Part shown: piece by piece, positions 15,253 through 34,300 of the stretch
Layout of the letters: every line of letters begins with the position of its first letter
Numbering within the stretch: position 1 is the stretch's first letter
Origin: Levilinea saccharolytica
GTDB lineage: Bacteria > Chloroflexota > Anaerolineae > Anaerolineales > Anaerolineaceae
NCBI RefSeq assembly: GCF_001306035.1
Contig: NZ_LGCM01000033.1
Span: 1 to 52,633, forward strand
Direction of reading: 5' to 3'
Length of the DNA: 52,633 bases
Notes under the pieces: model-generated
The model's database searches: none
What the model saw: only the letters and a program-made list of their open reading frames with translations
Told to the model about the DNA's origin: nothing
Position numbers and translations under genes: made by a program

Positions 15253-16380
15253 CTAATCCCGCACGTACACCCGCGGGATGCGTGCGTTGATCACCGCGGT
15301 CACATCCGCCTGCGAGGTCTTCCAGCGCGCCGAAAGATCTTCAATCTGAATGGCTTCCTGGCCCTGCTGTCCCAAAAGTACCACCTCGGTTCCCTCCGGG
15401 TAGGTCTGATCCAGCTTCACCATGCATGCGTCCGCGCAAACCCGCCCCACCACCGGCACACGCCGGCCATTCATTAGCACCTCGTTGTCGTACACCCGCC
15501 GGAAACCGTCCGCATAGCCCACCGGCAGTACACCGATCCATTCCGCGCCCTGCGTACGGTACACCTGCCCGTAACTCAGCCCCCAGCCGTCAGGCAGCAG
15601 CCGGCACGAAGCCAACTGCGCCTTCCAGCTCAACACCCGTCGCATCTCCGCAGGGAACGGCTCGAAATAGAATGGGCGAATCCCCACCAGCACCGACCCC
15701 GCCCGCGTCATGTTCATCCACGATGGCGGGTATCCCATCGCTGCGGCGGAATTGGCCGTGTGCAGCCAGCGCGGGTTTACCCCCACTCCTCGCACGCCTT
15801 CTACCGCTTGCCGGAAGCGTTCCATCTGTACCGGCGCCATCGGGTCATCCGGTTCATCGTCAATCATGGCAAAATGGGTGTAAATCCCCTCAATCTCAAT
15901 TCCCCCCAGCCCCACCGCAAAGGCCGCAAATTCACCCGCCTCCTCAGCCAGTACCCCCAGCCGCCCCATGCCCGTGTCAATCTTCAGGTGCACCTTAGCG
16001 GTCTTCCCCAGGGCTTTAGCTCGCTGGCTGATGCGCTCCGCGTTTTCACGGCTGTGCAGGGTCATGCGCACTTCCTGTCCAATGGCGGCCTCCACCTCCG
16101 GCAGGGTCGTCATACCAAACACCAGGATAGGTGCATCAACGCCCTCCTGCCGCAGCGCCGCCGCCTCACAATACCGCGCCACAGCTAGCGCCTTGGCCCC
16201 CGCCGCCAGCATCTCGCGTCCAATCGGTACTGCCCCCATGCCGTAGGCGTTGGCCTTCACCACTGCCATTAAGTCCACCCCCGTGCGTTCCAACAGCCGC
16301 CGTGTGTTATGCGCCACAGCCGAAAGGTTGATCTCTAGCCAGGTCGGGTAAGGCTGTACAGCCGTGCCAGGAGTGTTCAT
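15253..16380 (-). CDS. alr: Alanine racemase family (fold III PLP racemase)
   Basis: A 375-residue enzyme with both catalytic bases: Lys42 in AVVKANAYGMGA (Schiff base with PLP) and Tyr289 in PVGYADGF. Other family landmarks are KIDTGMGRLG, THFAMID, HTANSAAAM and NGRRVPVVGRVCADACMV. The usual GRVCMDQ is changed to GRVCADA and the usual Y-G after the MxRxG motif is VG, so specificity may differ from a strict alanine racemase. It is divergent from the Liv importer operon: its -35-like TTGTCA on the minus strand would overlap the liv -35. AGAGGA precedes the ATG. It could provide D-alanine for peptidoglycan or racemise the amino acid handled by the neighbouring aminomutase operon; the latter is inference. 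Confidence 0.9.
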   Translation of the reverse strand: MNTPGTAVQPYPTWLEINLSAVAHNTRRLLERTGVDLMAVVKANAYGMGAVPIGREMLAAGAKALAVARYCEAAALRQEGVDAPILVFGMTTLPEVEAAIGQEVRMTLHSRENAERISQRAKALGKTAKVHLKIDTGMGRLGVLAEEAGEFAAFAVGLGGIEIEGIYTHFAMIDDEPDDPMAPVQMERFRQAVEGVRGVGVNPRWLHTANSAAAMGYPPSWMNMTRAGSVLVGIRPFYFEPFPAEMRRVLSWKAQLASCRLLPDGWGLSYGQVYRTQGAEWIGVLPVGYADGFRRVYDNEVLMNGRRVPVVGRVCADACMVKLDQTYPEGTEVVLLGQQGQEAIQIEDLSARWKTSQADVTAVINARIPRVYVRD

Positions 16381-16702: not shown

Positions 16703-17866
16703 ATGAAAAGCCGCATTCTCATTACCCTGATTCTCGTTGCGGTACTGCTCAGCAGCTTGCTGTCGGCCTGCAAGCCCGCCGAACCAGAAACCATCAAGAT
16801 TGGCAATCTGGTTGCGCTCACCGGCCCCAGCGCTACCTGGGGACAGTCGGAAAACAACGCCCTCATGCTGGCCGTGGATAAAATCAACGCTGCCGGCGGT
16901 ATTGACGGCAAGAAGATCGAAATCATCGCCTACGACAGCCGCGCCGACAAACTCGAAGCCGTGAACGTTGTCAAGCGCATGGTCGAACAGGACAAGGTCG
17001 TCGCCATCATCGGCCCCGGCCAGTCGGGTGTTGCCAACGCCGTCCGCGAAGTCAACAACTCCGCCAAAGTTCCCCTCATCGCCACCACCGCCACCAACCC
17101 CAAAGTCACCGTGGCCGATGACGGAACGGTTGTGCCCTTCACCTTCCGCGTGTGCTTCATTGACCCCTTCCAGGGTACCGTTGCTGGCCAGTTTGCCCTC
17201 AAAGACCTGGGCGCCAAGAAAGCCGCCACCCTGTATGACATCGGCGACGAGTACTCCCAGTTCCTGAGCAAATACTTCGTGGAAGCCTTCGAAAAAGGCG
17301 GCGGCACCATTACCGCCAGCGAAGCTTTCCGCTCCGGCGAGTTGGACTTCCGCGCGCAGTTGGGCAAGATCAAAGAAGGTAACCCTGACGTGATCTTTAT
17401 CCCCACCATGCAGAAGGAAGCCGCTTTGGCAGCCAAACAGGCCCGCGACCTGGGCATCACCGCCACCCTCATCGGCGGCGACGGCTGGGGCAGCCCCGAC
17501 ATCTTCGATCTGGCCGGCCCCGCCATTGAAGGCGCCTACTTCGTCAACCTGGCTGCCATGGAAGATCCCACCATCCAGGACTTCCTCAAAGACTACCGCG
17601 CCAAATACGGTGCCGACCCTGTGCTGCCCAACCCGTTGATGTCTTATGATGCCATGCTCTGGCTGGCCGACGCCATCAAGCGCGCTGGTTCCACCGACGG
17701 CACCGCCCTGCGCGACGCCCTCGCCGCCACCAAGGATCTGCAGGTTCTCACCGGCATCCTCACCATTGACCCCAGCAACCATAACCCCCTCAATAAGCCC
17801 GCCGTCATCCAGCAGTGCAAGGACGGCAAATTCACCTACGTGAAGACCTTCGTCACCACCGATTAG
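16703..17866 (+). CDS. livK: Branched-chain amino acid-type binding lipoprotein (LivK-like)
   Basis: A 387-residue periplasmic-binding-protein-fold lipoprotein of the Leu/Ile/Val family (family 6). The signal ends in LLSAC (Cys23). The mature protein begins IKIGNLVALTGPSATWGQ, with INAAGGIDGKKIEII, VAIIGPGQSGVANAV and the LRDALAATKDL region near the end. The start at 16703 is chosen from AAGGAG at 16685-16690 and the signal peptide; upstream in-frame sequence to 16463 is leader. Family members bind branched-chain or other amino acids, amides or aromatic acids, so the ligand is not fixed. Regulation by the GntR-type operator is likely. Confidence 0.92.
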   Translation: MKSRILITLILVAVLLSSLLSACKPAEPETIKIGNLVALTGPSATWGQSENNALMLAVDKINAAGGIDGKKIEIIAYDSRADKLEAVNVVKRMVEQDKVVAIIGPGQSGVANAVREVNNSAKVPLIATTATNPKVTVADDGTVVPFTFRVCFIDPFQGTVAGQFALKDLGAKKAATLYDIGDEYSQFLSKYFVEAFEKGGGTITASEAFRSGELDFRAQLGKIKEGNPDVIFIPTMQKEAALAAKQARDLGITATLIGGDGWGSPDIFDLAGPAIEGAYFVNLAAMEDPTIQDFLKDYRAKYGADPVLPNPLMSYDAMLWLADAIKRAGSTDGTALRDALAATKDLQVLTGILTIDPSNHNPLNKPAVIQQCKDGKFTYVKTFVTTD

Positions 17867-17883
17867 CCTTCTCTCTCCTCATG

Positions 17884-17918
17884 AAGTTCCGGCGGCTCAC
17901 CAATGGCCGCCGGAACTT
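17884..17918 (+). other. Intercistronic hairpin after LivK gene
   Basis: AAGTTCCGGCGGC and GCCGCCGGAACTT pair perfectly over 13 bp with a 9-nt loop, ending in TTTC. It lies between the binding-protein and permease genes, in the same relative place as the hairpin in the peptide importer operon. It probably sets the ratio of binding protein to permease. Confidence 0.68.
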
Positions 17919-17979
17919 TCAGAGATTTATCCCAGGGGCCCCGCTGGCGGCCCAACCCCCGCTACATTCGGAGGCTGCA

Positions 17980-18870
17980 TTGATTTTTCAAACCATTATC
18001 ACAGGTTTATCCATCGGGAGTATTTACGCCTTAATGGCGGTAGGGTACTCCCTGGTTTTTTCGGTGTTGAATTTCTCGAACTTCGCCCATGGTGCGGTGA
18101 TCACCCTCGGCGCCTATGTCGCCTGGGCTGTCATGGTCAATATCTTTCAGTTGCCCTTCCTGCCCGCCCTGCTCATCTCCATGCTCGGCGCCGGGATCAT
18201 CGCTTTCTTAGTGGAACGGATCGCTTACAGCTCCCTGCGGCACCGTCGCGCCCCCTCCCTTTATTTCATGATCAGCGCGATGGGTATGGCAATCGCTCTG
18301 CAAAACGTCCTCTATGCCACCATCGGCGCCAACCTCTATGCCCTTCCGCCGGTCTTCGCTCAAGACAGCATCCAGTTGGGCACCGCCGTCATCTCCAAGA
18401 TGGATCTTTTCGCCTTTGGCTTTTCCATTCTGGCCATCGCCCTGCTCACCTTTATCCTCAACTTCACCCGCGTCGGCACAGCCATTCGCGCCGCCTCCCA
18501 TGACGCCGAAATGGTCTCCGTCCTCGGCGTCAATCTGGATATGCTCGTGGCCGTGCTCTTCCTCTTGGCCGGAGCGCTGGGCGGCATGGCCGGGGTCTTC
18601 ATGGGCGTCAAGTACATGGTCTACCCCAGCATGGGTTGGATCACCAACAAAGCCTACATCGGCGCGGTTATCGGCGGCCTCGGCAGCCTGCCGGGGGCCA
18701 TCGTGGGCGGCATCTTGTTGGGCCTGGTAGAAGCCCTCATCTCGGTCAGCACCATCGGGGGCGTCCCCCTGTCCACCTACCGCGACGTTTTCAGCTTCGG
18801 TCTTTTGGCCCTCCTGCTCATCGTCCGGCCCACCGGCTTGTTTGGCCGGCACGTCGAAGAGAAACTCTAG
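17980..18870 (+). CDS. livH: Branched-chain amino acid ABC permease (LivH-like)
   Basis: A 296-residue membrane permease with eight or so hydrophobic segments. The start is a TTG at 17980, picked because GGAGG lies 5 nt upstream and the product then begins with the usual LivH N-terminus (IFQTIITGLSIGSIYALMAVG). Family motifs are LNFSNFAHGA near residue 40, GTAIRAASHDAEMVSVLGVN (the ATPase-contact loop), GAVIGGLGSLPGAIVGG and the terminal RPTGLFGR. It pairs with the LivM domain of the next gene, 12 nt downstream. Confidence 0.92.
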   Translation: MIFQTIITGLSIGSIYALMAVGYSLVFSVLNFSNFAHGAVITLGAYVAWAVMVNIFQLPFLPALLISMLGAGIIAFLVERIAYSSLRHRRAPSLYFMISAMGMAIALQNVLYATIGANLYALPPVFAQDSIQLGTAVISKMDLFAFGFSILAIALLTFILNFTRVGTAIRAASHDAEMVSVLGVNLDMLVAVLFLLAGALGGMAGVFMGVKYMVYPSMGWITNKAYIGAVIGGLGSLPGAIVGGILLGLVEALISVSTIGGVPLSTYRDVFSFGLLALLLIVRPTGLFGRHVEEKL

Positions 18871-18882
18871 GAGAGACCTGCT

Positions 18883-20832
18883 ATGGCTTACGCGCAAGCA
18901 ATTTTTACCAACGCAGCCATCTACATCATCGCCACCATGGGTCTGGCCATCTTCACCGGCTACACTGGCCTGTTCTCCCTGGGCCATGCGGCCTTCATGG
19001 CCATCGGTGGCTACACGGCGGCCATTCTGACCTATTTCTTCAAGGTGCCGCTGCTCCCTGCCCTCATCGCCGGGGTGATCCTCTCCGTCCTGGTGTCTGT
19101 CATTATCGGCTACCCCACCTTGCGGGTGAAACTGCGCTCCGACTACTTCGCCATTGCCACCCTCGGCTTCGGCGAGGCCGTCAAAGTCCTTCTGGAGAAC
19201 CTGGAAATCACCCAGGGCGCGCGCGGTCTCCCCGGCATCACCAAACTGGCTGATCCCTTCAACACCTTCCTGTTCATGATCCTAACCATCTGGCTGTGCC
19301 GCAACTTTCTCCACAGCAATTACGGCCGTAAGATCATCGCCATCGGTCAGGATCCCGTCGCCGCCGAAATGATCGGCATCCGCCTGCTGCCCAACCAGAT
19401 GCTCTCCCTGGCCATCAGCGCCGGTTTCGCGGGCCTCTCCGGCGGCCTCCTCGCCCATTACATCACCTTCATCCAGCCCGCCATCTTCAACATGGATCTT
19501 TCCAGCCTCATCACGGCGGGCGTGGTCTGCGGCGGCATGGGCAGCCTCACCGGTCCCTTCGTGGCGGTGGCCCTCTTCATCGTCATCCCTGAGCTGTTCC
19601 GCGGGCTGGCCCTCTGGCGTCTGGTGATGTACGGCGCGCTGCTGGTGGTCATCATCAACTTCCGCCCCAAAGGCCTCTTTGGTTACGAAGAAATCAACCT
19701 CAACAACGCTCCTAAGCTCTTCACCATCATCGGTATCACCGTCGGCCTCACCGTGGCCGCCAGCATCTACAACGAATATGCCAGCTACTGGGGGCGCTTC
19801 CCGTCTGTCCTGGCGGCACTGGCTGCTGCCGTGGCCATCTCTTTCATCGTGTCCTACGCAGGCCGCTGGCTTTCCTCGGCGCTCAAACCGTTCTCAGCCA
19901 AATTCAGCAAGTCAATGAGTGCGTTCTACGCTCGCTACGTGGCTGCCTTCCAAAAAGCCTTCACCCCCACCCGCCGCCTCGAGGTTCAGCTCAACGCTCT
20001 CAAAGAACGTCTGGCCGTCGTTCGCTTGGATCACTCCCAGCCGGTACTAAAAATTGAGCACCTCTCGAAAAAATTTGGCGGCGTGGTCGCTGTCAACGAT
20101 CTCAGTTTTGAAGTGCGCCCGGGTGAAATCCTCGGCCTCATCGGCCCCAACGGCTCCGGAAAAACCACCGTCTTCAACCTCATCTCCGGCGTCTACCCCA
20201 TCGACAGCGGCGATATTCTCTTCGAAAAGAAGAACCTGGTCGGTCAGCCCCCCACCGCCATCGTCCTCTCGGGCATCTCGCGCACCTTCCAGAACATCCG
20301 CCTGTTCGGCTCCATGACCGTTCTGGAAAACGTCCAGACCGCCCTGCACACCGCCAGCAACTACTCCCTGCTGGAAGCCTTCATCCAATGGCCCTGGTCG
20401 GTCAACCCAATGGAACAGCGCCAGCGTGAACAGGCACTGGAGCTGCTAAAATTAGTAGATCTGGAAGAGTACGCCGACCGCGTGGCCAAAACCCTGCCCT
20501 ACGGCCTGCAGCGAAAACTGGAAATCGCCCGCGCCCTGGCCCTCAACCCGCGCCTCCTGCTGCTGGATGAACCCGCCGCGGGCATGAACCCCAAAGAATC
20601 GCTGGAGCTTGTGGACCTCATCGCCCGCATCCACAAGCTGCGCAACCTCACCATCATCCTCATCGAGCACCACATGGATGTGGTCATGAACATTTGCGAA
20701 CGTATCGTGGTCATCAACTTCGGCAGCAAGATCGCAGAAGGCACCCCGCAAGAAATTCAATGCAACCCTGCCGTCCTCGAAGCGTATTTGGGCGACAAGG
20801 TGGAGGTGGAAGAATATGCTCCTCTCTGTTGA
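18883..20832 (+). CDS. LivM permease fused to LivG ATPase
   Basis: A 649-residue fusion. Residues 1-265 are a LivM permease (GYTGLFSLGHAAFMAIG, GARGLPGIT, MIGIRLLPNQ, GGMGSLTGP, ending FRPKGLFG). Residues about 275-340 add two further hydrophobic segments (LFTIIGITVGLTVAAS; VLAALAAAVAISFIVSYAG) and a basic amphipathic linker, which I do not expect in LivM. From about 388 comes a LivG-type ATPase: Walker A GPNGSGKTT near 421, a degenerate signature LPYGLQRKLEIA, Walker B LLLLDEPAAG and EHHMDV. The reading frame is continuous with no internal stop. The ATPase domain thus stays tethered to the membrane. Its 3' end overlaps the LivF gene by 17 nt. Confidence 0.92.
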   Translation: MAYAQAIFTNAAIYIIATMGLAIFTGYTGLFSLGHAAFMAIGGYTAAILTYFFKVPLLPALIAGVILSVLVSVIIGYPTLRVKLRSDYFAIATLGFGEAVKVLLENLEITQGARGLPGITKLADPFNTFLFMILTIWLCRNFLHSNYGRKIIAIGQDPVAAEMIGIRLLPNQMLSLAISAGFAGLSGGLLAHYITFIQPAIFNMDLSSLITAGVVCGGMGSLTGPFVAVALFIVIPELFRGLALWRLVMYGALLVVIINFRPKGLFGYEEINLNNAPKLFTIIGITVGLTVAASIYNEYASYWGRFPSVLAALAAAVAISFIVSYAGRWLSSALKPFSAKFSKSMSAFYARYVAAFQKAFTPTRRLEVQLNALKERLAVVRLDHSQPVLKIEHLSKKFGGVVAVNDLSFEVRPGEILGLIGPNGSGKTTVFNLISGVYPIDSGDILFEKKNLVGQPPTAIVLSGISRTFQNIRLFGSMTVLENVQTALHTASNYSLLEAFIQWPWSVNPMEQRQREQALELLKLVDLEEYADRVAKTLPYGLQRKLEIARALALNPRLLLLDEPAAGMNPKESLELVDLIARIHKLRNLTIILIEHHMDVVMNICERIVVINFGSKIAEGTPQEIQCNPAVLEAYLGDKVEVEEYAPLC

Positions 20833-21574
20833 GAACCTGAACGTCTTTTACGGTGAGGCTGTCCACGCCCTGCGGGATGTCTCCTTCCAGGTGGATCAAG
20901 GCGAAATCGTCTCCGTCATCGGGGCTAACGGCGCCGGAAAAAGCACCCTCATGTGGACCCTCATCGGCCTGCTGCGCCCCAAATCGGGTAAGATCACCTT
21001 TGGCGGGAAGACCATGAACGCCGTGCCCCACCAGGCGGTTCAAGGCGGCATGGCCCTGGTGCCAGAGCGCCGCCGCCTCTTTCCCAACCTCACCGTGCGC
21101 GAGAATTTGAGCCTGGGCGCCTACCTGCGCCACGACCGGGCCAAAATCGCCGAGGATGAGGCCTACGTGTTCTCCCTCTTCCCCATCCTCAAAGAGCGCC
21201 TCGGCCAATACGCCGGAACCCTCTCCGGCGGCCAGCAGCAGATGGTGGCCATCGCCCGCGGGCTGATGTCGCGCCCCAAACTGCTGCTCCTGGATGAACC
21301 CTCTCTGGGCCTGGCTCCCGTGCTGGTCAACCAGATGTTTGACTCCATCCAGCAAATCGCCCGCCAGGGAACCACCATCCTGCTGGTGGAACAAAACGCC
21401 CTGCAATCGCTCAAGATCGCCAACCGCGCTTATGTGCTGGAAGTTGGCCACATCGTCCGCGAAGGTACGGGGCAAGAGCTGCTGCGCGATCCATCCGTCC
21501 AGGCCGCCTATTTGGGCGTCCGCCAGAATAAAGAAGAAGTGCTGCAAAACGCGTCTGCTCCTCCGGCGGCGTAG
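20816..21574 (+). CDS. livF: Branched-chain amino acid ABC ATPase (LivF-like)
   Basis: A 252-residue ABC ATPase of the LivF subgroup: Walker A GANGAGKST near residue 40, ALVPERRRLFPNLTVRENL typical of LivF, signature LSGGQQQM, Walker B LLLDEPSLGLAP and H-loop region LVEQNA. It works with the LivG domain of the fusion as the nucleotide-binding dimer. Its start is inside the end of the fusion gene, which indicates coupled translation. A GC-rich hairpin follows the stop. Confidence 0.93.
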   Translation: MLLSVENLNVFYGEAVHALRDVSFQVDQGEIVSVIGANGAGKSTLMWTLIGLLRPKSGKITFGGKTMNAVPHQAVQGGMALVPERRRLFPNLTVRENLSLGAYLRHDRAKIAEDEAYVFSLFPILKERLGQYAGTLSGGQQQMVAIARGLMSRPKLLLLDEPSLGLAPVLVNQMFDSIQQIARQGTTILLVEQNALQSLKIANRAYVLEVGHIVREGTGQELLRDPSVQAAYLGVRQNKEEVLQNASAPPAA

Positions 21575-21731: not shown

Positions 21732-22436
21732 ATGAACAATAACCCACTTTCCCCCGTTGCATCACCCACCTCTCTGGAAAAGATGGCCTATGAAGCGATT
21801 AAACAAGCCATCCTTTCCTTTCAATTTAAACCGGGTGAAAGCCTGGTGGAAAATGACCTCGCCCGGCAGCTCAATATCAGCAAAACCCCGGTTCGAGACG
21901 CCCTTTCGCGCCTGGAAAAAGAAGGCTTCATCGTCAAAATCCCCTACAAAGGCTATTACATCGCGGAAATTTCCCACCAATCCGTGATCGAAATCTTTGA
22001 AATCCGCGCCGTCCTCGAAGGCCTTGCCATCCGCCTGGCCGCCAAAAACTGCACCGACCAGGACGTTCAAACTGCCAGCGAACTGATCGAGAAGCATGCC
22101 CAGGCCGCCCGGGCCGGCAACATCGTCGAAGCCTCGCGCCTTAACCGCCAGTTCCACGACCTGCTCATTGACCGCTCTGGCAACGAACGCCTAATGCAGA
22201 TTTTGGGCAATTTAGAGGATCATCTCGTCCGCTACCGCACCCTCTCCAATTTTCAAAGCGGCCGCCTGGAGAAATCGGTCAGCGAACATAATGAGATCCT
22301 GCACGCCATCGTCACGCACGATTTGGACGCCGCCGAAAGCGCCGCCCGTGAGCATATCCTCAGCGTTTCCGCCGATCTCGCCCCCCAGGATTTCCAAGAG
22401 TTGGTCGAACGCATCAAACTTCAGCAAGAACCGTAA
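21732..22436 (+). CDS. GntR-family transcriptional regulator, FadR subgroup (FCD domain)
   Basis: A 234-residue regulator. Residues 14-80 form the GntR winged helix (LEKMAYEAIKQAIL, ENDLARQLNISKTPVRDALSRLEKEGF). Residues about 85-220 are the all-helical FCD ligand domain, with candidate metal-binding histidines at 142 (RQFHDLL), 186 (SEHNEIL) and 208 (REHIL). The Asp usually four residues before the first His is Asn138. FCD regulators sense small organic acids or amino acids and usually repress. It is the first gene of a run of catabolic genes on the same strand and has a perfect palindrome over its own promoter, so I predict autorepression and control of the two importers that carry related sites. 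Confidence 0.92.
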   Translation: MNNNPLSPVASPTSLEKMAYEAIKQAILSFQFKPGESLVENDLARQLNISKTPVRDALSRLEKEGFIVKIPYKGYYIAEISHQSVIEIFEIRAVLEGLAIRLAAKNCTDQDVQTASELIEKHAQAARAGNIVEASRLNRQFHDLLIDRSGNERLMQILGNLEDHLVRYRTLSNFQSGRLEKSVSEHNEILHAIVTHDLDAAESAAREHILSVSADLAPQDFQELVERIKLQQEP

Positions 22437-22467: not shown

Positions 22468-23937
22468 ATGGCTAAGAAATTTCAATTCCGCTATCAAATG
22501 TACAAGCATCTGCAGGCCAACCAGGCCGGTATCTATGCTGAATGCCGCCAGGCCGCCGAGGAAGTCGGCATCACCGGCGAATGGAAGGGCAATGTAGGTC
22601 TCACCGGCGCGGTTTCGGGCTGCCACGGTCTGCTCGGCCGCAAAGTGGAAGACGCCATGAACGACGTCGCCCGCAAGGTGCTTCCCAGCGCCGTGCTGGA
22701 TGAGCGTCTGCGCGACGTGGTTAAAGCCTATTACGGTGACGAATACGACGCCGTTCTGGTTAACACCTGCGAAGCCGGCCTCAACACCGCTTTCGACGTT
22801 CTGTGCATGCCCCCCACCCTGGGCCGTGGTGAGCCCTACCGCGCCCGCTACCTGGCCCCCTACGAACGCCACACCCACCATCAGGCTGCCTACGGCCGCC
22901 CCTTCCCGCCCAAGTACAAAGAGGTCAACGCCGAGCGCGGTGAAGCTGCGGGCGAGTACGGTGTGCAGGGCAAACGCGCCTTCAATCTGGATACCGTCTA
23001 TGTTCGCCCCGTCGGCGCGGAATATCCCTGCCACGGTATCAAGAACAACCCCATCATCCACCTCAGCAATGTGGACGGCGGCAAGACGGTTGATCTCTTC
23101 GACACCATCGCCATGCGCCACATCGATACCCTCGCCGGTTTGGTGTGCGTCGGTTATGACACCCCCGGCTACGGCTACGGCGACCAGGATGCTGAAGGCA
23201 CCCCCGTCCTGCAGAAGGGCCTCGGCGACCTGGCCCTCAAGTATGACATCCCCTTCATTGTGGACAATGCCTGGGGCGTTCCATTCATCGGCACCGACAT
23301 CCGCAAGATCGGCTGCGACGTCATCATCTACTCGATGGACAAGGCCTCCGGCGCGCCCACCTGCGGTCTGATCATCGGTAAAGAAGAACCCATGGTGCTC
23401 ATGCGCCGCGCCCTGGGAGTCCACGGCGCTCGTTACGGCACGCTCTCTTCACACGGCAAAGCCGCTTACGTCGGTTTTGACCCCGGCAAAGAAGCCCTCG
23501 CGGGAGCCATCGCCGCCATGCAGATCCTCAAGGAAACCCCCGAAATCGCCCTGCAGGCCACTCAGGACCTCTACCGCATCTGCCTGGAAGAGTTCGAACT
23601 CCTGCCCGCCTCCCTCAAACCCGGTTGGAATATCTGCATGTCCAAGAACTCCCTGGCGGTCGAATTAAATTACTTCGACACCTGGAAACACAACGAAGCC
23701 GGTATCCCCGTCTTCTCCATCGAAGATATGTACGCCGGTTCTCACGTCCTTCAGAACGCCATGTCCCAGATGGGCATGGTCCCCACCATCGCCTACGACG
23801 CGAATATCTTTGTGTCCAACGGCATCGGCAACCTGGACGAAGAAGGCCGCCTGATGGAAAAACCCACCCGCATGTCCATCCGCGCCATGTTCAAAGCCAT
23901 CGAGATCATCAGCCGCTACGCGGGTCTCCTCGACTAA
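22468..23937 (+). CDS. PLP-dependent enzyme, SelA-like fold type I, unknown reaction
   Basis: A 489-residue enzyme with AAGGAG RBS, 31 nt after the GntR stop. It has the layout of fold type I PLP enzymes: FIVDNAWG with Asp266 (pyridine nitrogen) and Lys292 in IYSMDKASGAP, the likely Schiff-base lysine. A flanking APTCGLIIGKEEPM segment resembles SelA/DgaE-type proteins. An N-terminal motif GLTGAVSGCHGLLGRK and a His-rich YERHTHHQAAYGRPF segment are unusual to me. I cannot assign a reaction; a lyase, racemase or aminotransferase-like step on the amino acid handled by the downstream aminomutase is plausible from context. A hairpin after its stop separates it from the following four-gene run. 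Confidence 0.75.
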   Translation: MAKKFQFRYQMYKHLQANQAGIYAECRQAAEEVGITGEWKGNVGLTGAVSGCHGLLGRKVEDAMNDVARKVLPSAVLDERLRDVVKAYYGDEYDAVLVNTCEAGLNTAFDVLCMPPTLGRGEPYRARYLAPYERHTHHQAAYGRPFPPKYKEVNAERGEAAGEYGVQGKRAFNLDTVYVRPVGAEYPCHGIKNNPIIHLSNVDGGKTVDLFDTIAMRHIDTLAGLVCVGYDTPGYGYGDQDAEGTPVLQKGLGDLALKYDIPFIVDNAWGVPFIGTDIRKIGCDVIIYSMDKASGAPTCGLIIGKEEPMVLMRRALGVHGARYGTLSSHGKAAYVGFDPGKEALAGAIAAMQILKETPEIALQATQDLYRICLEEFELLPASLKPGWNICMSKNSLAVELNYFDTWKHNEAGIPVFSIEDMYAGSHVLQNAMSQMGMVPTIAYDANIFVSNGIGNLDEEGRLMEKPTRMSIRAMFKAIEIISRYAGLLD

Positions 23938-24049: not shown

Positions 24050-24289
24050 ATGCCCAAAGCCCTGGATCAGGTTGTGGACGCCTTGGATATTGAGACTTAT
24101 CTGTATTGCAAAAGTGAAGAAGAAGCCAAGGAATTGGCCGAAGCGCTCGCCGCAGAAATGAATCTGCCGCATCCCGATATCGTGTTTTTAGAGCACCGCG
24201 GCTGGGGCGCGCGTGTGCGCATCCGTACCTATGTGCACCGCCCCGGCGACCATTACCGCTGGCTGGAAGAAGCGGGAGGCCAGGCATGA
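24050..24289 (+). CDS. Small aminomutase subunit: OAM/KamE dimerisation-type domain alone
   Basis: A 79-residue protein with RBS AAAGGAG. Its core, ETYLYCKSEEEAKELAEALA then AEMNLPHPDIVFLEH, matches by eye the dimerisation segment that precedes the B12-binding domain in D-ornithine 4,5-aminomutase OraE and lysine 5,6-aminomutase beta subunit KamE. Those have a strand, a helix rich in A/E/K, then K-M-(N/G)-L-E-E, then a beta hairpin. In the known enzymes this segment is part of the large or beta subunit; here it is a separate protein. Its stop overlaps the ATG of the next gene (ATGA), so the two are coupled and probably form one complex. Ascribed from remembered family sequences, without alignment software. 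Confidence 0.65.
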   Translation: MPKALDQVVDALDIETYLYCKSEEEAKELAEALAAEMNLPHPDIVFLEHRGWGARVRIRTYVHRPGDHYRWLEEAGGQA

Positions 24290-26115
24290 AAACCGTACTC
24301 CTCGCCCCACTCGACCCCGTGCACGACAACGCTGTCAAGCTGCTCAAACGCAGGCTGGACGAAGCCGGCTATCAGGCCCTCACCATGCCCCCCGGCACCA
24401 CCGTGGAAGAAGTGGTGGAAAAGGCTCTCGCCGTTCATCCCGCCGCCATTCTGGTCAGCCGCACCCTCGGCTATAAGGTCGCCGAAACGCTCGGCCAATT
24501 GGTGGACCTGGCCGAAGCCTCCGGCCTGCGTGAAACCACCCGCCTGGGCGTGGGCGGCATGGCCATCACCAAAGAAACCGGCGCCGAGCTGGGCTTTGAC
24601 GGCACTTTTGTCGGCGCTTTGAATATTAAAGAAGTGATTGCCTTCATCGAAGGCCGCCAGGGTGTGCTGGAAGAAGATCACAGCGCCCAGGTGCAGCGTC
24701 CCAAACCCGATGTCGTTGCCGGGCATACCTACGCCTGGAAAGACCGCAAAATCGAAGCCCTGCTGGATACCATCACCGACCAGATTTTGGACTGGACGAA
24801 AGGCAAAACCAGCGACGGCATCCAGCGCGCCCTCATCCGCACCGAAATGCTGGAGGCCGGGGTGGCCCACCGCGCATCCCCCCAATCTCCAGTCCGCCAG
24901 CGCCTCTTAGAAAAATACCTCTCCTTCTGCGATGCAGAAATCCAGGCCGCCTATCAGGAGGGTAAACTTCCCTCAGGCGTCCGGCCTTTGGATCAAGCCG
25001 AAATTGACCGTCTGCCTGAACGCCTGGCTGGAGGACATTTTGAATTCCAGCCCCTCCGCCATGTGGGCGACAAGCCCCTCTTCTTCGCCCAATACGGAAC
25101 CGGCTGCCCGGTGATGGACGTGGTCCACATCAAAACCACCGAAGCCTGGGGCGCAGACGGCGTGCTGCATTTCGACCCCTCCTGGGGCGCCCAGCGCGAA
25201 GGCCTGCTGCAAGGTCATCTCACCCATGAACACGACGGCACCATCCTGACCCTGGAAAACTTGAGCTTCATCCGTCAGCACATGGAAGCCCCCACCCTGT
25301 GGAACGTGCGCGGCCACCGCGGTCTCAACACCCCCGAAACCCAGGTGCTGGCCCATGCCGCGGGTGCTGACCTGCTGAAAATCAACATCCCTTACGGCGG
25401 CACCGCCGGCGGCACAGACCCCGAACGCCTCACCGTGGATGGTGTTTTCGCCCTGCGGCTGGCCGCCCAATACGGCCTGCCCTTTGACATCCCCGGCAAC
25501 GACGAACTCAGCGGCGTTCCGCCCCACAAGACCTTCGCCGGCCTGCTCATCATGATGATGCTCGGCCTCAAGCTGGGCGCGCGCCCCATTCCCAAGCCCC
25601 TGCTGTGCTACTCGCCCCACATGACCATCTACGGCCACATGGATGACAACATGGTGGATATGAACGTGGCCAAGCTGGCCGTCTGGCAGGAGATCGTGGA
25701 TACCCCTGTCTGGCCGGGAGAGCCCGTCGGCTTCATGACCCACACCCCCGACCGTGTACAGTCCGCCGTCACCACCGCCAACCACGCTGCTCTGGCTGCC
25801 AGCATGGGCGTGTCGGCCATGACCTTCGCCTCCTCCGATGAGGCCTATTCCAAAGGCCCCATCTCCGTTCCCGCCCGCGTAGACACCCTGCGGGCTGTGC
25901 GCGAGAGTCTGCGCTTCCTCGGCAGTGCCCACTTCCAGCCCACCCCCGCCGCCCAGCGCATGCAGGCCCAGCTCCACCTGGGCATCACCGCCGTCTTGGA
26001 AAAAATCGCCCAGCGCGGAGATTTCGTCGCATCCATCTACGAAGGACTGCTCGGCGACCAGGAAGACGGCCTCTACCCCGGCCGCACAGGCCGCGGAACC
26101 GTCCGCGCCGAATAA
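24286..26115 (+). CDS. Adenosylcobalamin/PLP aminomutase-like enzyme, B12 domain first
   Basis: A 609-residue protein. Residues 1-125 form a B12-binding Rossmann domain like KamE/OraE: LAPLDPVHDNAVKLL with His13 in place of the cobalt-ligating His, LVSRTLGYKVAE with Lys64 aligned to the KamE lysine that holds PLP in the resting state, and LGVGGMA. Residues about 145-580 resemble the KamD/OraE barrel: GADGVLHFDP, then LLQGHLTHEHDGTILTLEN matching the region in KamD with the pattern G-G-T-x-x-T-x-E-N. Such enzymes move an amino group between adjacent carbons of D-ornithine or lysine. The domain order (B12 domain before barrel) is reversed from OraE. The B12 motif DxHxxG is degenerate (P-V-H-D-N-A). 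The substrate is unknown. Confidence 0.72.
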   Translation: MKTVLLAPLDPVHDNAVKLLKRRLDEAGYQALTMPPGTTVEEVVEKALAVHPAAILVSRTLGYKVAETLGQLVDLAEASGLRETTRLGVGGMAITKETGAELGFDGTFVGALNIKEVIAFIEGRQGVLEEDHSAQVQRPKPDVVAGHTYAWKDRKIEALLDTITDQILDWTKGKTSDGIQRALIRTEMLEAGVAHRASPQSPVRQRLLEKYLSFCDAEIQAAYQEGKLPSGVRPLDQAEIDRLPERLAGGHFEFQPLRHVGDKPLFFAQYGTGCPVMDVVHIKTTEAWGADGVLHFDPSWGAQREGLLQGHLTHEHDGTILTLENLSFIRQHMEAPTLWNVRGHRGLNTPETQVLAHAAGADLLKINIPYGGTAGGTDPERLTVDGVFALRLAAQYGLPFDIPGNDELSGVPPHKTFAGLLIMMMLGLKLGARPIPKPLLCYSPHMTIYGHMDDNMVDMNVAKLAVWQEIVDTPVWPGEPVGFMTHTPDRVQSAVTTANHAALAASMGVSAMTFASSDEAYSKGPISVPARVDTLRAVRESLRFLGSAHFQPTPAAQRMQAQLHLGITAVLEKIAQRGDFVASIYEGLLGDQEDGLYPGRTGRGTVRAE

Positions 26116-26138: not shown

Positions 26139-27197
26139 GTGCAGACCATCAGTTTTGCAGGCACCGCAAAAAACACCGGCAAAACCACCACCGCCCTTCA
26201 CATGGTGGAGCGCTGCCACGCGCGCGGTCTGCGGCTGGCCCTTACCAGCATCGGCTATGACGGTGAAATCAAAGACAACGTCACCGGCCTGCCCAAACCG
26301 CGTTACGTGCTTCAGCCCGGCGATTGGGTAGCCACTGCCGAAAAATGCCTCAAAACTGGTACAGCCGGCTACCACATCCATCACACATCCTCCATTTACA
26401 CCGTCCTGGGCCGCATCGTTTTCGTGGAAATCACCTCCCCGGGTCTGGTGGTTTTGGCGGGCCCCAACCGCCGCACAGATTTGGAACAGGTCTTAGCAGA
26501 TTTTCGCCGCATCGGGGTGGACTGGGTGCTGGTGGACGGCGCCCTCAACCGCCTGGCCCCCATGATCTGCACCGGCGGGCTGGTGCTCTCCACCGGCGCA
26601 GCCTTCACCGAAGATATCCCCACCCTGGCCGAACATGCCCGCGCCCTGTGCGCCATGTTCCAATTTCCCCTCTCGTCCCTGCCGCCCACAGCGGCCGTTA
26701 CCCTATCCCTCCCCAACAGCGACCAGGAAATAAAGCTGGACAGCGGCTCTTTGCTGAGCCAAGCCGCCTTTCAAGCGCTGGAGGCCGCCGCAGAAGCCGC
26801 CCCACCCCAGCACGTACGCATCCCCGACGCCTGCCATCCAGCCTGCTTGCTGGACCTTCTCACCCGCAAGCCCGCCTTATGCCAGGCGCAATGGGTGTTT
26901 GGCAGCCCCCTCAAGCTGCTTGCCTCCGGCGACCCGCGCCTTTGGGAAGCAGTTTGGGCGCGCCTCCAGCATCCCCCGCAGTATTTCGAAACTCTGCCCC
27001 TGCGCTGCCTCACCCTCAACCCCTTTTACCCCTCGTACCACGCTGCCACATGGAGCTACAGCGAGAAATTCCTGGATGCTAACGCCTTGCTAACTGCGGT
27101 CCGCGCCCAGGTGACGGCCGTCCCCGTGCTTAACCTGCGCCAGCCGCCCATCCCCGACCTACTCGACCTGCTGACCCCCTCGTGCACCCCCTCCTAA
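26139..27197 (+). CDS. P-loop NTPase, candidate aminomutase reactivation factor
   Basis: A 352-residue protein starting at GTG (26139), with AAAGG upstream. Walker A lies at the N-terminus: GTAKNTGKTTTAL (Gly8 to Thr16), a form seen in MobB/CobQ-like or SIMIBI-type NTPases. It continues with ALTSIGYDGE, GPNRRTDLEQVL and WVLVDGALNRLAPM, where the Asp of VLVDGA is a possible Walker B. The C-terminal third is not conserved to my eye. Lysine 5,6-aminomutase clusters encode reactivating proteins (KamB/KamC) near the enzyme; position and an ATPase fold make a similar job reasonable here. That is inference: I do not recognise direct sequence identity. Confidence 0.6.
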   Translation: MQTISFAGTAKNTGKTTTALHMVERCHARGLRLALTSIGYDGEIKDNVTGLPKPRYVLQPGDWVATAEKCLKTGTAGYHIHHTSSIYTVLGRIVFVEITSPGLVVLAGPNRRTDLEQVLADFRRIGVDWVLVDGALNRLAPMICTGGLVLSTGAAFTEDIPTLAEHARALCAMFQFPLSSLPPTAAVTLSLPNSDQEIKLDSGSLLSQAAFQALEAAAEAAPPQHVRIPDACHPACLLDLLTRKPALCQAQWVFGSPLKLLASGDPRLWEAVWARLQHPPQYFETLPLRCLTLNPFYPSYHAATWSYSEKFLDANALLTAVRAQVTAVPVLNLRQPPIPDLLDLLTPSCTPS

Positions 27198-27206
27198 GGA
27201 GTTCCC

Positions 27207-27662
27207 ATGCCCGATCCCTATGCCAATCAGTTATTCAGCACCTCCGGCACACCCTGTGTCGAAAAAACCCCCGTCACCGGTGTGATCAACTGCACCCTCC
27301 ACGCCCGTTCCGAACGCCGCGGTTTGGAATTGGCCGCTTTTCCTTCGCGCGCCCTGCTGAAAAATGAAATCCACGAGCTGATCCTCACCGCCGAAGAGTG
27401 TGGCCCCGGCAAAACCGTCAATCAAATTGCCTACCTGGGATTTTTTGAAATCCAGCAAGGCGGCATCCTGTGGGTCGGCGACCGCGTAACCCTCAACGGT
27501 GAAACCATCGGCGTGCTCGCGGGTTACGATCTCACCCACTTCCCCAACCATTTCAATATCGTCATCAAAGCCCCGGCCCCGCTGAAAACGGGTCTCGAAT
27601 CCGGCGTTCACCCCGGCGATACCGTGGCTTTCATATTTGAGAAACCCGAATCCCAATCCTGA
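27207..27662 (+). CDS. Conserved-looking 151-residue protein of unknown function
   Basis: It follows the P-loop gene by 9 nt, with AAGGAG in the gap. The sequence is beta-rich (GVINCTLHARSERRGLELAAF, KNEIHELILTAEECGPGKTV, NIVIKAPAPL, GDTVAFIFE) and suggests a small barrel, for example a binding or cupin-like fold, without clear metal ligands. Its size and place recall the small OrtA subunit of ornithine degradation clusters, but I see no convincing similarity and no OrtB partner follows. Translation is tightly packed with the next gene, whose RBS overlaps this stop codon. Function not assigned. Confidence 0.65.
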   Translation: MPDPYANQLFSTSGTPCVEKTPVTGVINCTLHARSERRGLELAAFPSRALLKNEIHELILTAEECGPGKTVNQIAYLGFFEIQQGGILWVGDRVTLNGETIGVLAGYDLTHFPNHFNIVIKAPAPLKTGLESGVHPGDTVAFIFEKPESQS

Positions 27663-27674
27663 GGAGCCACTACC

Positions 27675-28583
27675 GTGGAATCAAAAATCAAAGTTACCGT
27701 AATGGGCTGCGGCCATGTGGGGCAGTATTCCGCCCGCGCAACCCAGCTTGCCCCCGATATGGAGCTGACCGGCATCATCGAAATGGGCTGCCGGCTGGAT
27801 GAGATCCGCTGCATGTTCAGCGGTATCCCTGTGGTGGAATCCGTTGAAGAACTCCCCGAAAAACCGGATGTCGTCATCCTTGGCGTTCCCTCCCGCACTG
27901 TCATCGAAACTGCCCCCAAACTGCTGGCAGCCGGAATCCGCACCGTGGACGCTTTCGACATGCACGGCGATCCCTTCCTGAATCTGCGCGAGACCCTCGG
28001 CCCCATCGCCCGTGAAAACGGCTCCGCCGCCATCATGGGCGCGGGCGTAGACCCCGGTGTCAGCACCATCATCCGCTCCATCTTCGAGATGTGGGCTCCC
28101 ACCGGTCTGACGTATGTCACCTACGGCCCTGGCATGAGTATGGGCCACACCGTCGCCGCCAAATCCTATGCGGGCGTGCGCAACGCCCTCTCCATCACCC
28201 GCCCCGGCGACCCTGGCTGCCATAAGCGCGACCTCTATCTAGAAATTGCCCCCGGCTTTGAGTTTGAAGAAGTCAAAGGCCGCGTGTTAGCCGACCCTTA
28301 TTTCAACCATGATGATGTGCGCGTCTTCCAGGTGGAAGATGTCAATCCGCTGATTGATATGGGCCACGCCATCCAGATTCACCGCAAAGGCGGCGCCTCT
28401 GGCATTGACAACCAGCTCCTCAGCTTTGAAACCACCTTCCACAACCCCGCCTCCACCGCCCAGGTCATGGTTTCGGCCGCCCGCGCCGTCACCCGCCTGC
28501 AGCCCGGCGCCTACACGATGATGGAAGTTCCCCCCTTAATGTACCTGCTCGAAGGCGAGCGGCTGCTCAAGCGCTTGTTCTAA
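27675..28583 (+). CDS. Diaminopimelate-dehydrogenase-like NAD(P)-dependent oxidoreductase
   Basis: A 302-residue protein starting at GTG (27675), GAGGAG upstream. The N-terminal Rossmann motif is VMGCGHVGQYSA (GxGxxG at 11-16). It then tracks meso-diaminopimelate D-dehydrogenase (Ddh) by eye: VDAFDMHGDP for VDTYDNH, GAGVDPGVST for GWDPGM, YGPGMSMGHT for WGPGLSQGHS, CHKRDLYLE, and YTMMEVPPLM near the end. Ddh oxidatively deaminates the D-centre of meso-DAP. Ornithine and lysine fermentation also use a dehydrogenase on the diamino acid made by the aminomutase, so I infer it deaminates the aminomutase product. It is the last gene of the operon, before a terminator. Confidence 0.72.
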   Translation: MESKIKVTVMGCGHVGQYSARATQLAPDMELTGIIEMGCRLDEIRCMFSGIPVVESVEELPEKPDVVILGVPSRTVIETAPKLLAAGIRTVDAFDMHGDPFLNLRETLGPIARENGSAAIMGAGVDPGVSTIIRSIFEMWAPTGLTYVTYGPGMSMGHTVAAKSYAGVRNALSITRPGDPGCHKRDLYLEIAPGFEFEEVKGRVLADPYFNHDDVRVFQVEDVNPLIDMGHAIQIHRKGGASGIDNQLLSFETTFHNPASTAQVMVSAARAVTRLQPGAYTMMEVPPLMYLLEGERLLKRLF

Positions 28584-31394: not shown

Positions 31395-34300
31395 ATGGCC
31401 TTTTTGCAGAGACTGCTGGAAAAAAAACCTAAACCCGCTCCATCCACCACGGACAAGCAATTTCGGGGCAGTCTCGCCCGCAATGTAATTTTCCTGCTCG
31501 TTCTCCTGTCCATCATCCCGCTGCTTATCACCGGTACAGCCACCGTGCTGCGCTCGCGCGAACTGGTTCGTAATCAAACCAGCACCCAGCTCGAATCCAT
31601 CGTCAAAAATCAAGCCACGCAGTTGGCTCAAGTGGCCGCCACCAGCACCAACGTGATCGCTGAGCTGGGCACGCGCGAATCTTTTATCGCCAATCTGCGC
31701 GAACTGGCCGAAGATCCCACCAGCGAATCCAAACAGTTCCCCGTCCTTTTCCAACTCCTGCGTTACCAAAACTCCACCATCGGCGATACCTATGCCAACG
31801 TGGATCACCTTTTTGTCCTGCTCCCCGACGGCTCTCTTGTCGCCTCCACCAACGACGCCTGGAAAAACCTGAACGTCGCCACCGCCGCCGATTTGATGCG
31901 CCTGGTGGGTCGGAACGACACCCTCGCCCTCTACAACCCCGCCCCGCTCTATTTTAACCGCCTGGTCATCTTCAGCACCCTCACCGTTTTCGACGATCAG
32001 AAAAACCCCCTGGCCACTGTCGTTTGCTCCTCGCTCTCCAACCAGCCCAAAGGCGTGCTCATCTCTGCTGGCTCCTTCTTCCCCTCCGCCAATGCCTACA
32101 TGATCACCGAAAACCGCTCCATGCTGGGCATCAACCCCACCGGTGAAGAACTCATCCAGCTGCAAATTTCACCCGCCTACGAACAGGAAGTTAATAATCT
32201 TCTGGGGCAAAACCGCGACGGCCGCCTGGGCAGCTATGTTTCCCTCGGCGGCATCCCTGTTTTTGCCTACACAAAGTGGATCCCAGAGCTTCAGCTCGCC
32301 CTCACTCTCGAAGTCCCTGAGCGCGTCGTTTACGCTCAAACCAACCTGCTCACCCCCACCAACATCATCCTCTTTGGGCTGACCTTGCTGGTCGCTGGCG
32401 TTATCGCTTCCATCGTTTCTGCGCAAATCGTCCGCCCCATCCTCGACCTGGTGAGCCGCGCCCGCAGTTTCTCAGCAGGCAACTGGGATCAACGCGCGCG
32501 CGTCACCCGCCGCGACGAAATCGGCCTTTTGGCTCACTCCTTCAACGGCATGGTTGAGCAGCTCAGTGATCTTTACCGCTCGCTGGAACAAAAAGTGGAG
32601 CAGCGCACCCAACAGGTGCGTATGGCTTCCGAAGTGGCCCAAATGGCCACCTCTTCCTTTGTTCGCGATGAAATCGTGGCCCGCACGGTGAATCTGGTCA
32701 TTGAACGCTTTGATTATCTCTACGCTTCCATTTTCCTGATTGACGATACCGGTACGGTGGCTTCAATGGAAGCGGAAGACTGCCGCGTCGATCCTTACAA
32801 CAAATACACTGGCCTGCGCCTGCGCCTCGGTTCCGACTCTCTGGTGGGCTGGGTGGCTGCCAACAATCAGGCGCGCGTGATCCAGGACGTGTCCAACGAT
32901 AGCTATCCCCAACAGGTTCTGCAGGAATTAGCTCGTTCCGAAGCCGCCCTGCCCATCAGCATCGGCAATCAGGTGTTGGGCGTGCTCGAAGTGCAGTCCG
33001 ACCAACCCGAAGCCTTCGACCCGGATGTCGTTCCCGTCCTGCAAACCCTTGCCAACCAGATCGCCTCTGGTCTCCAGAACATCCGCCTGCTCGAATCCAC
33101 CCAGATTAACCTGCAAGAGACCTCCCTCCTCTACCGCACCAGCCGTCAGATCACCCAGGCTCAGGGTCCCGAAGAGGCCACAGAACTGCTGATTTCCATT
33201 TTGCAGGAAATCCCCTACGTCTCCGGCGTCTATTCGGTAGAAGAAGACCACCTGCGCATCATTCACATCCACGATCCTAAAGACCGCATGGCGCGCTCCA
33301 CCGCCCAGGGCATCACCCTTCCGCTTCAACACCTCGCCTCTCAACTTACCAACCGATCCATGGTGCTTTTGGACGATCTCAGCCAGCGCACCGAGCTGCA
33401 AAGCCTGATTTCGTTCTTCGCCCGCCGCGGCTGCGTGGCCGCCGCCATCTTCCCCATCCATGTCAACGGCGTCCTCTCTAAAGTCATCGTGCTCAGTACG
33501 CGCGAGGCGCGCCAAATTTCTGAAACCGCCTTGCAGCCCTTCGCCAACCTCATCGAAGTCACCTCCACCACCCTGGGCCGCTTTGGCATCCTCAGCAGCC
33601 TCGAAACCAAGGTCAACGAGCTGCAAATCCTTTCAGAAGCCTCCCGCGGCCTGTCCAATGAAATTGACCGTTCCCGCCTCTTCGAGCAGATGCACGCAGC
33701 GGTTCGAGAAATTGTCGGCGGTGATGTCAGTTTCTACGTTGCCACCTACAACGCCGAACAGCAGACCATCGAGATCCCATACCTGTATGACAACACCGAG
33801 GTCAGCAGCATCCCCCCCTTCCCCCTGGGTGAAGGCATCACCTCAGTGGTCATCAAGAGTTTGCAGCCCTTGCTTCTCAACCGCGACACCGAACGACAGG
33901 CCCAGGCCCTGGGCGCAAAACTCGTCGGCAAAACCCCCAAATCCTGGCTGGGTATCCCCCTCATCGTTGCCAACCAGGCGGTCGGCGCTCTGGTGGTTCA
34001 GGATATGCAGACCGAAGAGCGCTTCACCGAAGACCATCTGCGCCTCTTCAACACCCTGGCCCCCCAAATGGCCACCGCCATGCGCAACGCTGACCTGCTC
34101 GACCAGATGAGCAAAGCCCTGCACGACTATGATCAGGAACGCTTCCTGCTCAACACCCTGCTCAAAAACCTGCCGGATCTCATCTACTTCAAAGATGCCG
34201 CGGGGCAATTCATCCGTGTCAGCGATTCCTTTGCCAAACGCTTCGGTTACGACAAGCCTGAATCTTTGGTCGGTATGACCGATTTCGATCTCCTCGGTCA

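Follow-up and report, generated by a model that had tools for sequence, protein, structure and literature searches.

A split and permuted adenosylcobalamin mutase-like gene pair of Levilinea saccharolytica that seems to lack the canonical PLP site

Adenosylcobalamin (AdoCbl) mutases catalyse a small set of reactions, and pyridoxal 5'-phosphate (PLP) is taken to define the branch that holds lysine 5,6-aminomutase (LAM) and D-ornithine 4,5-aminomutase (OAM). Two coupled genes of Levilinea saccharolytica (genome of 4.23 Mb in 65 contigs) raise the question of what an enzyme built from the parts of this branch, in another order, might do. They lie on contig NZ_LGCM01000033.1 of assembly GCF_001306035.1, analysed here from position 1 to 52,633 (this whole stretch is called the window). 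A preliminary description of the DNA proposed a B12- and PLP-dependent aminomutase with a free-standing dimerisation subunit. We have sought to understand whether the architecture, the cofactors and the genetic setting agree with this proposal. The two genes are as follows.

24050-24289, plus strand: 79-residue free-standing subunit with a predicted OAM_dimer-like dimerisation fold (the 79-mer)
24286-26115, plus strand: 609-residue AdoCbl mutase-like protein (B609), with a B12 Rossmann domain at residues 1-121, a linker and a predicted KamD/GlmE-like TIM barrel at about 150-609

Both genes are real and, as described previously, their open reading frames are coupled by an ATGA overlap. Eight loci were compared: the window, L034-L039 and L051 (genome G405, same family). 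Locus L032 (genome G400) is about the same as L034 and was not counted separately. The gene for the 79-mer is directly before that for B609 in all eight. The two overlap in seven loci, by 4 bases in six and by 1 base in L037, and are separated by a gap of 3 bases in L051. Because the pair and its neighbours recur across the eight loci, the pair is a conserved unit and not a product of chance. The closest named relative of B609, with 98% identity, is in a Levilinea metagenome-assembled genome (MAG). Of the other five named MAGs with B609, two are assigned to Anaerolineaceae and one each to Anaerolineae and Longilinea; the last has no label finer than Chloroflexota.

Residues 38-121 of B609 match the KamE model NF052385 (E 2.9e-10; 40 bits against a cut-off of 280), and KamE chains of the PDB match the Rossmann domain by profile (E 1e-11). 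The Pfam B12-binding model also matches, under its cut-off (E 8e-4), and the domain further resembles the corrinoid proteins 4jgi (E 3e-4) and 1y80. The barrel was not credibly matched by anything in Pfam, in NCBIfam or among PDB sequences. The KamD model NF052384 was not matched by B609 at E≤1; OraE of the same genome scores 146 bits with it. Hence, profile searches bore out the Rossmann part of the preliminary description and not the barrel.

The barrel was recognised by fold. In the AlphaFold2 model of B609 the mean pLDDT is 66.5, the five models spanning 66.5 to 42.6. With Foldseek, the first-ranked structure was 1xrs_A, which is KamD (E 3e-9, TM 0.44). Comparison by VIA gave Z 19.1-19.6 for KamD, 17 for glutamate mutase E, 15 for OAM and about 9-11 for unrelated TIM barrels. 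Using hhalign, the scores to KamD (38.0) and GlmE (44.4) exceeded the decoy maxima of 26.8 and 22.6, and were reached by 0/150 decoys each. The C-terminal half of the barrel (474-579) aligns with GlmE at E 8e-5. Profiles of KamD and GlmE have no mutual match (probability 0.3%). Thus, at that sensitivity, a likeness between KamD and GlmE does not account for B609 resembling both. The predicted fold therefore argues for a TIM barrel of the KamD/OraE type, and the C-terminal region was not placed in any unrelated barrel family.

The sequence of the 79-mer matches the Pfam OAM_dimer model weakly (E 0.12; 13.3 bits against a cut-off of 25), and 18/150 decoys attained its hhalign score to KamE, 4/150 that to OraE. 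Its AlphaFold2 model has a pLDDT of 82. When this model was compared with the PDB by Foldseek, LAM beta and OAM chains took ranks 1-7 and 9; the best E was 0.024 and none was ≤0.001. By VIA, Z to LAM and OAM was 5.6-6.2, with dodecins tied at 5.3-5.8 (within 1 Z) and all rows below 8. It is thus by modelled fold, and not by sequence, that the 79-mer appears to be an OAM dimerisation domain.

The architecture proposed previously, a free dimerisation subunit and a Rossmann-barrel protein, holds, because the 79-mer folds like the LAM/OAM dimerisation domain and B609 has its B12 Rossmann domain first and then a barrel for which KamD is the nearest relative in fold. KamE is in effect cut between its two domains, and its Rossmann part leads into the barrel within one chain. 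Read through both genes, the order dimerisation, Rossmann, barrel is that of OraE circularly permuted, and the gene break has moved to between the dimerisation and Rossmann domains.

We then turned to the cofactors. Two codons of B609 are of interest for B12.

24322-24324, plus strand: His13, the axial cobalamin ligand by alignment with the corrinoid protein 4jgi; invariant in 8/8 loci, codon checked
25840-25842, plus strand: Glu519, the counterpart by hhalign of Glu330 in GlmE, a glutamate close to the Ado ribose; invariant in 8/8 loci, codon checked

Although the B12 motif DxHxxG is degenerate in B609 (PVHDNA), its sequence points to a Rossmann B12 domain with an axial histidine. The position of Glu330 was verified on the glutamate mutase structure 6h9e_B.

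The PLP site is a different matter. An excerpt of PMC3958899 lists as PLP contacts of LAM Lys144 of the beta subunit, Arg184, Ser189, Tyr236, Ser238, Tyr263, Arg268 and Asn299; we checked the numbering by counting along the 1xrs_A sequence. The PLP lysine (Lys144 beta/Lys629) is 11 residues past the axial histidine, and two KamE and two OraE sequences have a lysine there. In all eight B609 sequences the residue is Leu24. The stretch from the axial histidine to the next aligned strand is also nine residues shorter in B609 (26 residues) than in KamE of genome G290 (35), where it carries the lysine. Lys64, previously taken for the PLP lysine, is ruled out: it pairs with the 'TQK' lysine of KamE, which is not the one that holds PLP.

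In the barrel, hhalign places Asp297 at Arg184, Ala302 at Ser189, Val341 at Tyr236, Arg345 at Ser238, Gly375 at Arg268 and Asp406 (or Glu407, with a shift of one residue) at Asn299. Only Tyr263 is kept, as Tyr370. Hence, one of the eight side-chain contacts remains, and both arginines for the PLP phosphate are replaced. The residues of B609 at all eight positions are invariant across the eight loci. As a control, the seven barrel contacts were compared in two KamD and two OraE sequences, and 7/7 were identical. The comparison for B609 rests on the KamD hhalign alignment (E 6e-4). B609 keeps the B12 parts but seems, from these alignments, to be without the canonical PLP site. Among the AdoCbl mutases the pair thus still belongs with LAM and OAM, and the PLP in its proposed name does not stand. 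Our preferred reading, for which we consider the evidence evenly poised, is that the gene pair encodes a two-component AdoCbl radical mutase of the LAM/OAM/glutamate mutase superfamily without the canonical PLP site.

What such a mutase might act on is suggested by its neighbours.

16703-21574, plus strand: Liv-type amino acid ABC transporter (binding protein, LivH, fused LivM-LivG, LivF), upstream of the operon
21732-22436, plus strand: GntR/FCD regulator, directly upstream of the operon (Pfam FCD and GntR)
22468-23937, plus strand: PLP enzyme, probably of fold type I and of an unplaced family, first gene of the operon (Aminotran_5, 24.2 bits against 21.5)
26139-27197, plus strand: KamB-like reactivase, a P-loop protein (NF052386, E 5.8e-55)
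27207-27662, plus strand: DUF6917 protein (PF21891, E 1.6e-42)
27675-28583, plus strand: meso-diaminopimelate dehydrogenase (DAPDH)-type enzyme (TIGR01921, 196.1 bits against a cut-off of 180.6)

The DAPDH-type enzyme is encoded in six of the seven loci whose contigs reach that far, and is 48% (44-50%) identical to DAPDH of S. thermophilum. Five of the six copies were compared, and each keeps nine of nine substrate contacts: D92, D122, M152, G153, Y205, N253, H227, T171 and R181. We take the last three to correspond to the residues with which the C. glutamicum enzyme binds the carboxylate of the L-centre. The first six are contacts in an excerpt of PMC6085447, and an excerpt of PMC7797136 mentions H227 among engineered positions. 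PMC11082193 contained none of the DAPDH residue names. With nine of nine diaminopimelate (DAP) contacts in place, we infer a diamino-dicarboxylate, perhaps meso-DAP, as the pathway substrate. Judged by its residues, the dehydrogenase points to such a compound and away from lysine or ornithine. A DAP-like substrate nonetheless stays a tentative proposal, somewhat doubtful in our estimate.

The operon facts fit catabolism of a cell-wall diamino-dicarboxylate; the chemistry of each step is proposed as follows. The operon would probably be catabolic for a diamino-dicarboxylic acid such as meso-DAP. Substrate would bind in the B609 barrel and the B12 domain would close over it, with Glu519 at the Ado ribose aiding Co-C homolysis. 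The 5'-deoxyadenosyl radical would abstract a hydrogen and the substrate would rearrange, while the KamB-like protein would remove inactivated cobalamin. The dehydrogenase may oxidise a D-amino-acid centre, either in the diamino-dicarboxylate or in the isomer that the mutase makes from it, and a product may then be acted on by the PLP enzyme. In this scheme the independence from PLP, the type of reaction, the substrate and the sequence of steps are all putative.

Several observations weigh against a PLP-less mutase acting on a DAP-type compound. The model of B609 is middling (mean pLDDT as above, from seven mostly close sequences), and pLDDT falls below 50 at 371-376 and 516-550, which cover the loop after Tyr370 and Glu519. 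The hhalign alignment to KamD is weak, with a probability of 29%; the score to the OraE barrel was reached by 2/150 decoys; and tblastn with KamD of G290 reached just two of the eight loci at E≤0.01 (B609, E 2e-4). The Ado glutamate was placed via GlmE only. Since an alignment of KamD with OraE put Glu341 and Glu338 in different columns, the assignment of Glu519 rests on GlmE. Tyr370 corresponds to the PLP-stacking tyrosine and a Gly/Thr-rich loop replaces KamD Arg268, a PLP phosphate binder, so PLP might be held in a different way. For the substrate, the L037 operon is without DAPDH. Residue W121 of DAPDH is Val in 5/5 copies and F146 is Tyr in 4/5, so the substrate of the dehydrogenase may not be meso-DAP itself. 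Finally, no second DAPDH was found in the genome at E≤0.01, so this one may have a biosynthetic role as well.

The most serious alternative is that the pair is still a PLP- and AdoCbl-dependent aminomutase, with PLP on another lysine (e.g. Lys365) and a new Gly/Thr phosphate loop. The barrel and dimerisation domain are closest to LAM and OAM, Tyr370 is kept, the reactivase is KamB-like, barrel residues Lys365, 415, 429, 437, 463 and 523 are invariant, and where KamD has Arg268 there is a GxTxGGTD loop, also invariant. Conversely, there is no equivalent of Lys144, the stretch that would carry it is shortened, and Arg184, Arg268, Ser189, Ser238, Asn299 and Tyr236 are replaced in 8/8 loci, though stable across the divergence of KamD and OraE. 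We regard this alternative as doubtful but worth keeping in view. That the pair replaces LAM, acting on lysine or beta-lysine, is improbable. The genome has KamA over its cut-off with no KamDE found, no full-length KamE-type protein other than OraE, and the KamB-like reactivase. However, KamA lies, by eye, outside any lysine-fermentation cluster, unlike the adjoining KamA/B/C/D/E of G290; KamC was not found; the dehydrogenase keeps both carboxylate sites for a dicarboxylate; and the canonical PLP site is absent.

Two further readings concern the chemistry. The missing PLP contacts, taken with a retained Ado-activating glutamate, would suit 1,2-elimination as well as rearrangement, and the pair could then be an AdoCbl-dependent eliminase (an ammonia-lyase or dehydratase) with no isomerising activity. 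The closest folds of B609 are mutases, however, and the reactivase is of the KamB kind; we see little chance of this. B12 domains and TIM barrels occur together in corrinoid methyltransferases too, and the likeness of the B12 domain to 4jgi and 1y80 could be read in that way. But the closest barrels are those of KamD and GlmE, the Ado glutamate is kept, and the pair has a dimerisation subunit and a KamB-like partner, which together make a methyltransferase highly improbable.

Related pathways are encoded elsewhere in the same genome. A canonical ornithine cluster, ord-ortA-ortB-(oraS)-oraE-accessory-orr, is at L050:4599-12562 (G000:C2). Its Ord, OrtA, OrtB and OraE are each over the NCBIfam cut-off, and its Orr-like racemase and GlmL-type accessory are under theirs. 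The putative OraS is without a family match and was named by position. A canonical ornithine pathway is ruled out for the B609 operon: the ora genes are clustered elsewhere, and tblastn found none beside it. A 25% match to OrtB at 48170-49117 of the window is far from the operon. The lack of OraS noted in the preliminary description is borne out: neither OraS nor KamC gave a tblastn match at E≤0.01 in the window or the seven other loci, the KamC query being over its NCBIfam cut-off and the OraS query being a putative OraS, named by position. KamA (lysine 2,3-aminomutase), over its cut-off, is isolated at L109:8862-10205 (G000:C45); in open reading frame translations viewed by eye, no lysine-fermentation genes were recognised around it. 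At the search threshold there was no KamDE-type match in the genome. The glutamate mutase model TIGR01503 was unmatched there at E≤0.001, and had no match to B609 at E≤1.

The remaining members of the operon are well conserved. The KamB-like gene follows B609 in 8/8 loci, cut by the contig end in L038. The window protein scores 186.5 bits with NF052386 (cut-off 210), aligned over 1-325 of 326. KamB beside KamCDE in G290 scores 299, and its tblastn identity to the operon reactivases is 27-37%. The PLP enzyme is encoded upstream in seven loci (not L038), and has distant matches in 45/300 other genomes of the phylum (best E 2.7e-8, 26% identity). The DUF6917 gene is in 7/7 contigs reaching that far, broken by Ns in L039. 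Its hhalign alignment with OrtA has E 0.005 and a probability of 7%, with 0/150 decoys reaching the score; the OrtA model in NCBIfam was unmatched at E≤1. A distant relationship to OrtA is thus possible from sequence, as a lead only. Among 301 genomes of the phylum, 7 others have DUF6917. In five such Chloroflexota neighbourhoods (L085-L089, two on contigs below 6 kb) the other operon enzymes were not present. No literature text was found for DUF6917.

The Liv-type transporter adjoins the operon in four of the eight loci. Its LivM permease and LivG ATPase are fused in one gene for 649 residues (18883-20832), and the same fusion occurs in L034, L035 and L039. Genes for alanine racemase and for an ABC transporter of the oligopeptide type lie further upstream. 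The racemase (15253-16380; TIGR00492 over cut-off) adjoins the Liv-type transporter, and a racemase fragment has the same place in L039. In L035, a PALP-type gene (L035:4100-5077) between the transporter and GntR genes is over the cut-off of TIGR01275 (D-cysteine desulfhydrase family); the closest model is D-cysteate sulfo-lyase, with a score under cut-off. An FAD-dependent oxidoreductase (L037:1200-2480) lies upstream in the locus without the dehydrogenase and is a possible substitute. ARAGORN called a tRNA with a stop anticodon (tta) at 33223-33315 of the window, minus strand; it is inside the plus-strand open reading frame 31395-35735 and is probably false.

B609 is rare. In 400 genomes of the phylum, with up to three candidate places scored per genome, a full-length match was found in one, which is its own; in 34 others the match was confined to portions of residues 1-134. 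A search of 396 genomes of the class with the family profile (E≤1e-20) gave a single positive, again its own. Genomes G400 and G405 were outside these two draws and were found by close-relative searches. No relatives of B609 were encoded by 28 pattern-matched viral stretches, and there was no plasmid match. Phyla other than Chloroflexota were covered by one scan of genome contigs, which detects close relatives only. Genome G290 of the same family (L073, G290:C3) has adjoining KamA-KamB-KamC-KamD-KamE and an ora cluster elsewhere, yet is without a B609 match. For this architecture, Anaerolineae amino-acid fermentation and DAP catabolism, no publication on such a system was among the matches listed.

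In its boldest form, our proposal is of a PLP-independent AdoCbl mutase that evolved on the lysine/ornithine aminomutase scaffold, with its domains permuted and split anew, forms a bridge to glutamate mutase and rearranges DAP or a close diamino-dicarboxylate in a new type of reaction, providing a B12 route for fermentation of peptidoglycan DAP. This we find speculative and rather unlikely as a whole. If true, a member without the PLP site but with the barrel, the dimerisation unit and a KamB-like reactivase would show which 'locking' machinery separates from PLP chemistry, and the B609 family would link the LAM/OAM branch to glutamate mutase. The conserved operon provides a concrete candidate substrate, of the meso-DAP type, and a coupling enzyme, the dehydrogenase.

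Among known systems, LAM (KamD + KamE) shares with the pair a KamD-like barrel, a KamE-like Rossmann domain and dimerisation fold, and a KamB-like reactivase. It differs in that KamE is here split between domains and the Rossmann domain is fused ahead of the barrel; the PLP lysine and most PLP contacts are gone, KamC was not found and NF052384 was unmatched at E≤1. OAM (OraE + OraS) has the same three domain types. In OraE, however, the order is barrel, dimerisation, Rossmann, whereas here it is permuted and the PLP contacts are gone; OraS was not found, and the accessory protein is KamB-like in place of GlmL-type.

Glutamate mutase (GlmE + GlmS) is not known to use PLP, and binds glutamate with an arginine claw. 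The C-terminal half of its barrel aligns with that of B609, including the equivalent of Glu330, the confident part of the alignment being 474-579. Conversely, B609 has its B12 domain fused and a dimerisation subunit added, Ala515 in place of Lys326, and a KamB-like rather than GlmL-type partner. The N-terminal B12 domain of the fused isobutyryl-CoA mutase IcmF is a precedent for the order in B609, and Foldseek matched IcmF over the whole B609 chain, with a low TM of 0.14. IcmF has a GTPase between its domains and a barrel for a CoA substrate. The operon dehydrogenase, lastly, resembles meso-DAP dehydrogenase of the Symbiobacterium type in overall identity and in its DAP contacts, and differs from it at Trp121 and Phe146 and in being encoded in a B12 operon.

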